Shown here: positions 24,760 to 32,169 of the stretch, in pieces
Position numbering within the stretch: position 1 is the stretch's first letter
How the letters are laid out: every line of letters begins with the position of its first letter
NCBI GenBank assembly: GCA_036924085.1
Contig: JAVGWX010000004.1
Location: 77,115,090 to 77,179,089, forward strand
Origin: Ariolimax columbianus
Lineage: Eukaryota; Mollusca; Gastropoda; Stylommatophora; Arionidae
DNA length: 64,000 bases
Direction of reading: 5' to 3'
The notes under the pieces: generated by a model
Database searches by the model: none
What the model was told of the DNA's origin: nothing
Seen by the model: only the letters and a program-made list of their open reading frames with translations
Position numbers and translations under genes: made by a program

Positions 24760-24794
24760 TCATCGTGGGTCTTCTTCTTCTTCTTCGTACGCAG

Positions 24795-27700
24795 TCAGAC
24801 AGTAACCATTATTTTTTCGAAAAAAGCGGCGGTCATCCTGAGGCTCTCGCCACTGCCATAGAGCTTGTCTTGCAGTTCCACTGGCAATGGCCACATCTGC
24901 TCTCTCTGATCCTCGTATGTCGGGCAGTTCTGCAGCAGATGTTCAGCGGTCATTTTACCAGTACCGCACGGGCATTCGTCGGTACACCCTATCTTCAATT
25001 TGTTGAATAGGTGGTACCTCAGTCTGTTGTGGCCAGTGCGAAGTCTGAAGACAACGACCTGCTCTCTTCGGTTCAACTGGTAATAGGCATCGTTTTTGGT
25101 GTAACCAGTATGTTCGGTTTCCCATTTGGTCATGTATCTGGCTTTGATAAGCCGTTTTGACTCTTCGTACGTCATATTGGTATCTGTTTGTGGTAGTCTT
25201 GCACCTTCTTTTGCCAGTCTGTCTGCCTCCTCGTTGCCTTGGATGTTGCAGTGTGACGGAACCCACTGTACCACTACCCTTTTTGGTGCGGACTGCTGGC
25301 CCAGTTTGCAGAGTGCTGCTCTTAAGTCATTGAGCTCAGTGTTTTTCTGGCTTTTTAGCGCTGTGACTACGGTGAAAGCATCTGTCAGCAGGACTATATG
25401 GCTCTCATTTTCACTGTGTGTCACCATTTCTTCCACTGCCGCCCTCAGTGCCTCTGCCTCCGCTCTGAAATTGCTTGTGTACTTACCAGTAGCGAATGAC
25501 AGTGTTATTTTTCTGCCATTTGGTAGGTTCAGGAATGCTCCTGCCCCTCCGTTCTGTGTAGTGTTTGTTACAGAACCGTCGGTGTATGCATGGGTCCAGT
25601 CCATGCTTGGGTAACTTTTCTTTATGAAGCTTAGGGTAGTATCTCTCCTTTCTTTTTCAGTCTGGCAGTTTTTGTTTGCAATACCTGGTATATTTTCTAC
25701 CACCTCTGGAAATATATCCTGCCTCCAGGTAGGTTTTCGTACAGTAGTGATGGGTTTTGGTGTTGTTAGTGCGTTTTTGGGATCTTCGTGCATCTTTGCT
25801 TTGGCTATTTCTGCAAAGTTTCTCCGCTTTAGTTTCCCATTTCCCAAATTGTTTAGTCTCTGGTGCATTGGATGGTCAGTCAGTCTTCGGAGTTTCTCTG
25901 ACTGCAGCTGGGCTCTGCAGTCTCTTCTATCGGTCATGGATTGCAGTTTTGTAATCTTTTCAAGTTCTACAATTGGCGTTGACTTCATGCCACCTGTTAT
26001 AATTCTCATGGCTTGGTTTTGAAGTTTGTTAACTTTATCGAAGTTCGCCTTCGCTGCTGTTGTCCATGCCGCAATGCCATACTCGAGAACTGGTCTCACT
26101 CTTCCAGTGTACAGTTTCTTTAGTATACCTTCGTCTGCTCCCCAGCTTGTGCCAGCAAGTTTCCTCATGATTGCCATTCTTTCTCTGGCTTTCATTCGGT
26201 TTCTCTCAATCTGACTTTTCCATGTCATGCGCCGATCAAATGTGACTCCCAGATAGGTTGCGTTGTCGTTTGGCTGCAGGATTTTGCCATTTAGACTTAA
26301 TTTGGTACTTTGGGGTTTTAATGAAAGCGAGAATATTGTGCATGTGGTTTTCTCCTCGTTTATTTTGACCAGCCATGAGTTCGCCCACTCTTCCAGCGAT
26401 GTTAGGGCCGTCTGCATCCGATTTCTTGCTATGGTGAGATTCTTTTCAGAGGTCCACATAGCCAGATCGTCTGCAAACATTGAGCTATGGACTATTCTTG
26501 GTATATTTTCTGTGATATCGTTTATATATACCAGGAAGAGTGTGGGTGACAATACTCCCCCTTGGGGTACTCCCTGCTCGAGTGTCACCTTTTTGCTCAT
26601 CTGCCCTTGTACTTGGACTCTGGCCGTTCTTTGTTTGAGGTAGTGGTTGATCCACTTGTACATCTTCCCACAGACATCACTTCTTCTTAGCTTGACTCTA
26701 AGTCCGTCCTTCCAGACTTTGTCAAATGCCTTTTCCAGATCCACCCAAACAGCTACTGTGTGTTTCTGTGCCTGGTAGGCATCTTCTATCTCCTGGGCTA
26801 TGATGATGACCTGGTCCTCAGTGGATCTGTGCTGTCTAAAGCCGGCTTGCTGTGGAATTAGTATTCGTTTTTCTTCCAGATGCCACATCAGTCTGGTGTT
26901 TATCATCCGTTCCATCAGCTTGCCGACACAGCTCAGTAGGCTTATGGGCCTGTATCCATTTGGATCTGTTTTGTCCTTTCCTGTTTTTGGTACTGGTACC
27001 AGTATTGCATCTTTCCATGCCTGTGGTACAATTCCCCTTTTCCAGCTTTGGTTCAGGACCGATAGCAGTTTCCTCTTCGCTGTTTGGTCCAGCCCCATCA
27101 GCATTTCGTTTGTTATCCCGTCTTTTCCGGGAGATTTCCTTTTTTTTAGTGTTCTCATAGCCTCTTCCATTTCGCGCATTGTTAGTTTGGCCATCATGTG
27201 CTCTTCAGGAGCCGTATTTATGTTTTCGTGTCCCTTTAGCTCTTCGCTAATGTCTGTATGCTTATCTGCAGGGACCTCGATGTGGTTTGCTCTGGCATAG
27301 TGATCGACAAAGGCGTTTGCGGCTTTCTTACATGTGATCAAGTTCTCGCCCTGCTTGATAGTAATTTGTTTATTTGACGGGGTTTCGTCGTTCATGGCTC
27401 TGACTAGCTTCCATAGCTTGTTCCCGTCTTTGTCCAGGTTTAGAATTTCCGTTTTATTTTTCCAGCTTTCTCTTGCTGTTTGCTTGAGAGTGTGTTTGTA
27501 CTTCGCCGCGGCGGCTTTGAGGGCGATGTTTGCCTCCATGGATTTTTCTCGCTCTGCCATGTTCCTAGCATTTGTTACTGCATCTTCCACTTTCTGCAAC
27601 TCATCATTCCAGTAGGGCTTATAGTTTTTCCTAGCTCCTCTTGGGATGGTTTCAGTGGCGGCTTGCATTATTGCCTTGCTTAGGCTCTCTACCATGGGCT

Positions 27701-28124
27701 TCATTTTGGTGTTTCGTGTGTTGATGGTTTCACACAGCCCATCTGTCAGGATTGCAAATCTGTCCCAGTCGGCTCGTTTGTAATTCCAACGTGGGAGCGG
27801 TTTTGTTTCCTGTGGGCCTAGTTCCATGTCAATGGTTAGCCTGATCGGCCTGTGGTCGCTACCTGCCAGTTGGTTTAGCACCTGGCGGTCTATTTTATGG
27901 TGTATGTCCTGTGTGGAGAAGGCCAAATCTGGAGTCGAGGTGGTATGCCATGTTCTTGAATAGAAGCTAGGGCTATCCTCCGGCCTATTGATTAGGGAGA
28001 GATTTGCATCTATCTCCCAATCTTCCACTTCGTCACCTCTGCTGTCTGTGTCAGAGTATCCCCATCTCTCCGAGTGGCTGTTGAAATCTCCAACTACTAT
28101 GCAGTTGGAGTCTCTGACCTCCAT
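24795..28124 (-). CDS. LINE ORF2: endonuclease C-half, reverse transcriptase, RNase H (I/Nimb-like)
   Basis: This 1109-codon frame is uninterrupted. It holds the second half of an AP endonuclease (VVGDFNSHSERWGY near residue 10; GSDHRPIRL near 90). The RT core follows (GYRPISLLS near 385, DLEKAFDKVW near 460, GVPQGGVLSPTLF near 515, FADDLAMW near 549). RNase H has YTDGS near 850, AEAEA near 887, TDAF near 913 and SHCNIQGNEEAD near 955. The CPCGTGKMTAEHLLQNC cluster lies near 1050. All RT and RNase H catalytic acids are visible. The protein would nick target DNA, copy its own RNA and degrade the template. The frame ends just before the (GAA)n tail. Only the endonuclease is broken. Confidence 0.93.
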   Translation of the reverse strand: MEVRDSNCIVVGDFNSHSERWGYSDTDSRGDEVEDWEIDANLSLINRPEDSPSFYSRTWHTTSTPDLAFSTQDIHHKIDRQVLNQLAGSDHRPIRLTIDMELGPQETKPLPRWNYKRADWDRFAILTDGLCETINTRNTKMKPMVESLSKAIMQAATETIPRGARKNYKPYWNDELQKVEDAVTNARNMAEREKSMEANIALKAAAAKYKHTLKQTARESWKNKTEILNLDKDGNKLWKLVRAMNDETPSNKQITIKQGENLITCKKAANAFVDHYARANHIEVPADKHTDISEELKGHENINTAPEEHMMAKLTMREMEEAMRTLKKRKSPGKDGITNEMLMGLDQTAKRKLLSVLNQSWKRGIVPQAWKDAILVPVPKTGKDKTDPNGYRPISLLSCVGKLMERMINTRLMWHLEEKRILIPQQAGFRQHRSTEDQVIIIAQEIEDAYQAQKHTVAVWVDLEKAFDKVWKDGLRVKLRRSDVCGKMYKWINHYLKQRTARVQVQGQMSKKVTLEQGVPQGGVLSPTLFLVYINDITENIPRIVHSSMFADDLAMWTSEKNLTIARNRMQTALTSLEEWANSWLVKINEEKTTCTIFSLSLKPQSTKLSLNGKILQPNDNATYLGVTFDRRMTWKSQIERNRMKARERMAIMRKLAGTSWGADEGILKKLYTGRVRPVLEYGIAAWTTAAKANFDKVNKLQNQAMRIITGGMKSTPIVELEKITKLQSMTDRRDCRAQLQSEKLRRLTDHPMHQRLNNLGNGKLKRRNFAEIAKAKMHEDPKNALTTPKPITTVRKPTWRQDIFPEVVENIPGIANKNCQTEKERRDTTLSFIKKSYPSMDWTHAYTDGSVTNTTQNGGAGAFLNLPNGRKITLSFATGKYTSNFRAEAEALRAAVEEMVTHSENESHIVLLTDAFTVVTALKSQKNTELNDLRAALCKLGQQSAPKRVVVQWVPSHCNIQGNEEADRLAKEGARLPQTDTNMTYEESKRLIKARYMTKWETEHTGYTKNDAYYQLNRREQVVVFRLRTGHNRLRYHLFNKLKIGCTDECPCGTGKMTAEHLLQNCPTYEDQREQMWPLPVELQDKLYGSGESLRMTAAFFEKIMVTV

Positions 28125-31524: not shown

Positions 31525-32156
31525 TCTGTCGGAGACGTACGTACAGCACACACCGGTCGGCGGAGGAAGGGTGTGTAAAAAGCCTCGCTGGGACGACGGC
31601 CGCAGGGACCGACTGACGGGACGGACGGTTTGTTCCACCCGTCTCTCACTCCGTCGACCTAGGACCGCCTGACAGGGGCCTCCCACACGCACCAGACGAC
31701 CGACCGACCGGGCTCGCTCGAGGAGGGATGGCAGCGCTCTGTGCAGAACGGATCCCAACGACCTCGGCGATGAATTTCACTGGGACTAGAGACAATTTGG
31801 CCTGTCGGCCTGCCCTTCTCCGTAGGAGAACGCAGGGCCTCGAGGCAACGATTCCTGCTTTCCATTTGCCGGTCACAAGCTCTTTGCGAGAGTCGGACCA
31901 CCAGCGAGACGTACTGTCGAGCTCTGCTATAAGCCTTAGATAAATCTCCACGGACGGACCACGTTTCCTGATACGGACCAGACCAGCGCACCTCGGTGGA
32001 GGAGCCGCTGCAACAAACCGCACCCAATTCGCTCTACGGGGAAAGGCAGGCGAGCGTTTTCCGCAAGCCCGCGCTATCGCTCCGCCTGGCGGGACTGAGA
32101 TCGCTTTACGAACACTGGTTGAAATTGAGTCGCTGCGGCGAGACAACTACCCCAGA
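31525..32156 (-). other. 5' external-transcribed-spacer-like DNA
   Basis: Very GC-rich sequence directly upstream of the 18S start on the same strand, where the 5' external spacer of an rDNA unit would be. Long overlapping frames here (for example 31646-32146 on the minus strand) are a side effect of GC content. The GC-rich composition ends abruptly at 32157. No 45S promoter could be identified by eye. Confidence 0.6.
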
Positions 32157-32169
32157 TCATCGTGGGTCT

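Follow-up and report, generated by a model that had tools for sequence, protein, structure and literature searches.

A dispersed LINE family of Ariolimax columbianus that carries the 5′ external transcribed spacer and part of the 18S rRNA

Introduction

R1, R2 and other long interspersed elements (LINEs, retrotransposons without long terminal repeats) resident in ribosomal DNA (rDNA) are the described systems closest to an element that we report here from the gastropod Ariolimax columbianus, and they resemble it in their association with ribosomal RNA (rRNA) genes. The element lies in a stretch of 64,000 nucleotides, hereafter the window (GenBank assembly GCA_036924085.1, contig JAVGWX010000004.1, positions 77,115,090 to 77,179,089, forward strand), where the front of the rRNA precursor and a LINE are joined in one insertion of 7.4 kb. 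Most R-type copies sit at a fixed rDNA site, whereas the copies of the window LINE that were seen are dispersed at unrelated sites and carry upstream rRNA sequence as far as the putative start site. R2 has a restriction-like endonuclease, located after the reverse transcriptase (RT); the window LINE has an endonuclease of the apurinic/apyrimidinic (APE) type before the RT and does not belong to the R2 clade. R2 is regarded as promoterless and co-transcribed with rRNA (PMC2718515), R8 of hydra lies in the 18S gene, and some families of R2 are reported to lack target specificity (PMC5035012).

LINEs fused to cellular RNAs are a second point of comparison. PMC13174262 describes LINE-1 chimeras with U6, 5S, 28S and other RNAs, the 28S ones mostly in sense orientation and ascribed to template switching or RNA ligation; it gives 18 loci of human LINE-1/28S chimeras, and the term 18S is absent from its main text. 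In the chimeras as described there, the RNA is fused to the 5′ side of the LINE in one insertion, and a set of dispersed loci treated below looks alike. The window family, unlike the chimeras of that text, has an 18S junction that is inherited and occurs at thousands of sites, an external transcribed spacer (ETS) from the putative start site, and an 18S that appears to be renewed. Short interspersed elements (SINEs) with 28S- and 5S-derived parts, cited in the same text, are likewise retroelement families containing rRNA sequence. For the R2 RT, PMC8857657 reports continuous cDNA synthesis in vitro over physically separate templates, with jumps that pair with the template 3′ end; here the LINE is of another type, and jumping is deduced from its junctions in the genome. 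No description of a LINE family that includes 5′ ETS and 18S turned up in the literature that we searched, which comprised titles and the beginnings of abstracts (in part, the best 15-20 of 79-584 papers), with most subscription journals outside the coverage.

Results and Discussion

Structure of the window insertion

The insertion is bounded by the 13-mer TCATCGTGGGTCT, which an initial annotation of the window had claimed as an exact direct repeat. It is indeed found exactly at 24760-24772, next to the (GAA)n tail at the 3′ end of the element, and at 32157-32169, at the 5′ end, where it adjoins the first element bases ATCTGGGG (one base can be assigned to either), with no other match in the window at up to one mismatch; two such matches were obtained in 1 of 100 shuffles. 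The same annotation had cautioned that the left repeat might partly be element sequence. TCATCGTGGGTCT is absent from 87 loci fetched from the genome and is therefore not element sequence, and copies elsewhere have target-site duplications (TSDs) of their own, which settles the matter. The 13-bp repeat is a TSD, and the enclosed 7.4 kb was inserted as a single unit.

The rDNA and LINE parts had been said to share one sense orientation, on the minus strand, and Rfam, alignment and open reading frames (ORFs) all bear this out. The order is 5′ ETS, 18S nt 1-1240, two decayed 18S-plus-linker units, leader, ORF2 and a (GAA)n tail. The ETS, from a putative RNA polymerase I (Pol I) start, occupies 31525-32157 and is 96% identical to the reference rDNA unit described below (25 differences in 629), while 18S nt 1-1240 at 30285-31524 shows 5 differences in 1240. 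Rfam recovers the 18S at 31521-30377 (RF01960, 940 bits) and a further piece at 30375-30348 (26.5 bits, under threshold). A linker directly joined to 18S nt 1240 (unit 1, 30151-30284), whose junction 25-mer was counted genome-wide, is followed by unit 2 (29971-30150, with a decayed 18S piece at 30081-30150, 84% to rDNA, plus linker) and unit 3 (29640-29970, with linker and a decayed 18S piece adjoining nt 1240 at 29900-29970, 90% to rDNA). Within the leader, at 29232-29633, is a strongly decayed 28S 3′ end that the initial annotation had missed (Rfam RF02543, model positions 3005-3399, 66.7 bits, E 2e-13). The presence of this piece and of the decayed 18S units suggests older rRNA captures. 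A frame of 132 codons at 28845-29240 is, as a guess, a possible remnant of ORF1; Pfam gave nothing for it, nor for an open frame in the ETS.

ORF2 of the window copy is split over two frames, with its start and the N-terminal part of the endonuclease at 28144-28710 and its main open part at 24795-28196 (1133 codons stop to stop, comprising the end of the APE-like endonuclease, RT and RNase H), the two overlapping at 28144-28196. It is followed by the (GAA)n tail at 24773-24785, the length of which varies among other copies. Pfam matches are RVT_1 (4.9e-39), Exo_endo_phos_2 (1.9e-18) and RNase_H (4.9e-16), PDB matches are to LINE-1 ORF2, and among the best 120 of 282 relatives, most of them unnamed, the named ones include proteins of Littorina saxatilis and Batillaria attramentaria. 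A search of a phage collection found no match. The family shows the LINE hallmarks of short TSDs, a 3′ simple-repeat tail and 5′ truncation, and the element is a LINE of the APE plus RNase H type. SINEs are short, non-autonomous and without coding capacity; a SINE with an rRNA head is ruled out here, the window element being a 7.4 kb LINE with ORF2 and 1.9 kb of pre-rRNA.

A high-copy family with a shared junction

The window had been thought to hold a single chimera. The chimera is real but not unique, since 5,908 places were found when the genome from which the window comes (2.29 Gb in 401 contigs) was searched for further 18S/LINE junctions, as the initial annotation had suggested. At up to one mismatch, the LINE 3′ end is matched 45,921 times, the 18S/linker junction 5,908 times and the 5′ terminus 2,606 times (at least 6 of these in rDNA), and the reversed-pattern controls for all three gave 0. 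The family matches and the 5,908 junctions rule out a unique one-off event, and the latter also rule out, for the window type, a one-off template-switch chimera of LINE and RNA whose junction is unique to its locus. Losses of about 3.7e-4 per nt over the LINE and about 4.4e-4 over the rDNA part can be derived from the counts, a rough estimate given that k-mer variation differs; as far as such figures go, the similar rates indicate no marked break at the 18S/LINE junction.

The linker 25-mer is found 3,414 times, fewer than the junction, we think because linkers vary between subfamilies, and for this reason only linker neighbourhoods were used. On C1 below 47.45 Mb, 23 of 26 exact linker matches have an exact adjoining 18S junction, one other has a 5′ terminus at the right distance, and two have neither. 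Conversely, 36 exact 5′ termini in this region are followed by an exact junction within 8 kb downstream in 30 cases (at about 1.8 kb in 26) and by none in 6.

Individual copies were compared after a search with the 18S-unit region as query, in which 40 of 2,320 first-look candidates were scored, all at 99-100%. Twenty of the 39 scored copies other than the window's were fetched; they belong to the 40 with the best scores against a 681-bp stretch, and so are close relatives, and long. Fourteen begin within a few nt of the common 5′ end and extend as far as the (GAA)n tail, in some cases interrupted by gaps, while five are truncated at the 5′ end (L012, L014, L015, L020 and L022) and one ends at a run of N (L027). 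The fourteen and the window copy form the set of 15 full-length copies used below. TSDs of 11-14 bp adjoin both ends in 13 of the 15, each with a distinct sequence; none was found for L019 and L028, and none of the five truncated copies has a repeat of at least 8 bp adjoining both ends. The proposed copying of rDNA and LINE from a single RNA, with insertion between the duplicated target, thus gains support, not only in the window but in 12 of the 14 other full-length copies. Compared with one another, the flanks of the window copy and of the 20 fetched copies differ in each case (L027 borders a run of N). Private changes amount to 0.3-0.8% per copy, and the family is therefore taken as recently active.

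The front end is the genome's own rDNA

The foremost part of the insertion had been described as spacer-like DNA. Alignment to an rDNA unit identifies it as the 5′ ETS of the genome's own rDNA. An 18S 3′ pattern used to locate rDNA matched at 43 places, 16 on small contigs and 27 on chromosomes, and the repeat spacing is about 12.3 kb where visible, on small contigs. In unit L031, used as reference, 18S lies at 7305-9153; positions 6667 to 8544, the last of which is 18S nt 1240, align with the foremost 1,876 nt of the element at 98.2%. At that point the element departs from 18S (CAACACGG^CCAACACTG), where genuine 18S continues GAAAACTCACC.

At the other end, 14 of the 20 fetched copies start at, or no more than 5 nt inside, ATCTGGGG, which is preceded in rDNA by GGAATGTATATT; none of the 20 starts at mature 18S nt 1. 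From these sequences we infer that the 5′ terminus of the element corresponds to the putative Pol I +1. The ETS is variable among 8 rDNA units, which have three haplotypes, and many of the states are common to element copies. The first two diagnostic ETS bases of the copies are found in rDNA units of C86 (5) and C236 (1), and the ETS haplotype that matches rDNA at three sites is carried by L016, L017 and L025, which come from three ORF2 subfamilies. ETS variants hence do not track LINE lineages.

Junctions with pre-rRNA at other points

The 27 chromosomal places (L029, L030 and L041-L065) are dispersed loci with up to one mismatch to one 18S 3′ pattern, a search that misses older ones. In 25 of them the window LINE or a relative (74-98% identity) lies downstream in sense within the fetched stretch, although for L046, counted among the 25, the match covers only 173 nt, after a gap. 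L044 has no LINE in the fetched downstream stretch, and L051 runs on into 18S, possibly the element's own. The sequence upstream of one C13 locus (L039) matches neither rDNA nor LINE, and that locus therefore starts inside 18S.

As far as the loci were compared with one another, the junction is unique in most of them. L050 and L053 share a junction, L041 and L042 come close to doing so, and L054-L057 are apparently one event duplicated on C13; these four near-identical copies (37.29, 37.42, 38.06 and 38.18 Mb), two per strand, look like a large inverted duplication. The remaining junctions all have different LINE breakpoints, between element positions 1399 and 6799, and on the rRNA side fall in 18S, internal transcribed spacer 1 (ITS1) or beyond, with clusters at 18S nt 1796 (three, plus 1798 and 1799) and at ITS1+281 (two, plus +274 and +287). 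Once events are merged, 8 pairs are no more than 3 nt apart, where simulation gives a mean of 1.0 (P 1.5e-4). The simulation used 16 positions, with shared junctions merged, L029, L030, L044, L046 and L051 omitted, and L047 and L048 merged; these last two, both at nt 1796, were found afterwards to have 0 of 11 mismatches in common and so to be independent. We read this clustering as a sign that the RT jumps between templates, onto pre-rRNA 3′ ends that recur.

A young 18S in a diverging LINE

In the copies examined, the LINE body diverges but the 18S of the element stays identical to rDNA, except for changes that no more than two copies have in common. In the 15 full-length copies there is no 18S column in which 14 or more differ from rDNA, and each copy carries 1-11 changes. 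If a site is called informative when a minority base is present in at least three copies, then there are 0 such sites in 1,236 of 18S, 4 in 635 of ETS, 4 in 652 of the units, 2 in 402 of the 28S-like part, 0 in 512 of the leader and 34 in 3,920 of ORF2; the density in ORF2 would predict about 11 for 18S and about 4 for the leader.

More distant lineages were compared at 5 of the 8 dispersed loci whose junction has its LINE side in the 18S (one of the four C13 copies being included). The junction adjoins a clean 18S in L043 (0 differences in 330 nt), L065 (1 in 223) and L054 (1 in 478), of which the bodies are 3.6-3.7% diverged, and in L047 the 18S side shows 2 differences in 85 nt beside a body diverged by 24% (P 2.6e-8). 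The junction of L058, with 16 nt of 18S, is too short to be informative.

Where is the source?

We propose that the family multiplies from chimeric pre-rRNA, and on balance we lean slightly towards source copies that are resident in rDNA at 18S nt 1240. Such copies would lie in rDNA units, or behind their promoter, joined at 18S nt 1240, and Pol I would supply the promoter, the source copy being transcribed as part of the pre-rRNA. The copies themselves show that the full-length unit extends from a common end in the rDNA start region, by way of the 5′ ETS and 18S nt 1-1240, to the LINE and is inserted whole with a TSD, and at many loci LINE sequence also continues onto pre-rRNA at other points, to which the RT would have jumped. 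Concerted evolution of rDNA would renew the 18S and reshuffle the ETS, and dispersed copies, having no upstream promoter, would mostly be dead on arrival. A resident source is proposed because a continuous RNA from the rDNA start, a renewed 18S and a shuffled ETS are expected of one. More tentatively, and with a little less than an even chance of being right throughout, the history may be that of a long-lived LINE lineage, with bodies diverged by as much as 24%, which is attached to 18S nt 1240 in the rDNA pool, has Pol I as its sole promoter and its 18S renewed by concerted evolution, and has seeded thousands of copies that start where the rRNA does, while the ready jumps of its RT record pre-rRNA intermediates.

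Several observations weigh against an rDNA-resident source read by Pol I. None of the 8 rDNA units examined at nt 1240 is interrupted there, and the LINE tail or 3′ end before 18S nt 1241 has 0 matches each. However, 122 matches to the rDNA promoter pattern (two on chromosomes among the matches listed) stand against only 16 small-contig places with the 18S 3′ pattern; with much rDNA, including several whole stretches, reading N and few visible 18S places, the search for a resident source has little power. The start is not uniform, since C10:58993497 begins about 17 nt farther upstream and, in C13:24609058, 13 of the 14 nt before the usual start agree with rDNA (aligned by eye). ETS 6815T, present in 15 of 15 copies, and 6794A, in 14 of 15, are found in 0 of 10 sampled rDNA units, and the 512-nt leader, from the 28S-like part to ORF2, is as free of informative sites as the 18S, so that this property is not specific to 18S. 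Transcription by Pol I is itself deduced from sequence. Finally, the copies lie at unrelated sites, and most known rDNA-resident LINEs are not so dispersed.

A source among the dispersed copies is the alternative that survives best, although we consider it unlikely. RNA from such copies would be kept clean in 18S, and shuffled in ETS, by the RT switching within homologous 18S to free pre-rRNA. This accounts for both properties, and LINE junctions with pre-rRNA at other points are indeed common. A switch in every cycle should however leave many copies ending at the linker, yet 24 of 26 exact linker sites run on into rDNA; mature 18S would be expected as a frequent acceptor, and 0 of 20 copies start at its nt 1. 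The near-universal 6815T and 6794A, unseen in 10 rDNA units, would also be odd for fresh capture, and the explanation names no promoter.

Slightly less probable still is vertical inheritance from one founding chimera with an internal promoter, its 18S conserved by need (for example nucleolar targeting or 40S binding). The stability of the junction in 5,908 places, the 5′ truncation and TSDs, in which the family behaves like a normal LINE, and the leader, likewise without an informative site in 512 nt, agree with such descent. It is at odds with the absence, among the copies examined, of any fixed or subfamily change in 18S, even in its variable regions, when ORF2 has 34 informative sites, with the clean 18S of L047 beside a body 24% diverged, and with ETS haplotypes that cross LINE lineages. 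An artefact, in which misassembly or DNA recombination joined rDNA and LINE, might be suspected as rDNA is hard to assemble and parts read N here, but is in our view already refuted by 5,908 junctions (spread along C1 among the matches listed, with other copies on many chromosomes), individual TSDs, 5′ truncation and reversed-pattern controls of 0.

Other rDNA-related loci and neighbouring features

The two chromosomal rDNA promoters among the matches listed were considered as LINE sources and rejected. At C12:62836864 (L068, L069, L073 and L079-L082, from C12:62836600 on), a promoter and spacer (85%), ETS (88%) and 18S (98%, at two sample points) are followed by a stretch 78% identical to the 28S-like part of the leader; two further short samples we take to be 28S, judged by eye, and two samples farther down gave no convincing rDNA or LINE match. 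We take this locus to be an orphan rDNA piece. At C10:58993497 (L066, L067 and L074, from C10:58993400 on) is an older chimera, with an ETS of 85%, about 17 nt of promoter upstream of the start, and a relative of the LINE ORF2 (87.5%) about 1.77 kb downstream. L077 (from C13:24608990 on) is a dispersed copy with the ETS of the element, possibly a second one starting upstream of the usual end.

Among the matches listed, promoter spacing on C50, C67, C86 and C190 suggests rDNA units enlarged by about 3.1, 4.2, 4.7-4.9, 6.4 and 7.4 kb, which may contain R-type insertions or the window LINE; C67 also has one inverted rDNA promoter. The intergenic spacer of L031 contains subrepeats at 4453-5675.

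The window holds a second copy of the LINE on the plus strand at 5067-7743, 5′-truncated and internally deleted (97.6-98.6%), and, on the minus strand at 44038-44523, an old, 5′-truncated piece from the 3′ part of a related LINE (75.8%). Beside the TSD, at 24701-24759 on the minus strand, is a tRNA-like SINE head (GGGACGGCGTAGTCTAGTGG..., judged by eye), although ARAGORN found no tRNA; the 20-mer GGGACGGCGTAGTCTAGTGG recurs at 48803-48822 with 2 mismatches. A degenerate tandem repeat of about 30 bp (GTCAAGTTAATGGTC...) lies at 32780-33490, not far from where the insertion has its 5′ end.

Implications

The LINE/rRNA chimeras known so far are single insertions and rare, and rDNA LINEs are mostly site-bound; the window family links both, as a high-copy LINE whose full-length unit starts with the front of the pre-rRNA transcript. 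For work with genome data, the family is a caution that dispersed copies of 18S and ETS can be LINE sequence. The copies can also be regarded as fossils of pre-rRNA, which preserve 5′ ETS variants and the putative start site, and whose jump junctions may record 3′ ends. If the source is read by Pol I, then a dispersed LINE can manage without a promoter of its own, and homogenisation of the rDNA would keep part of a LINE young.

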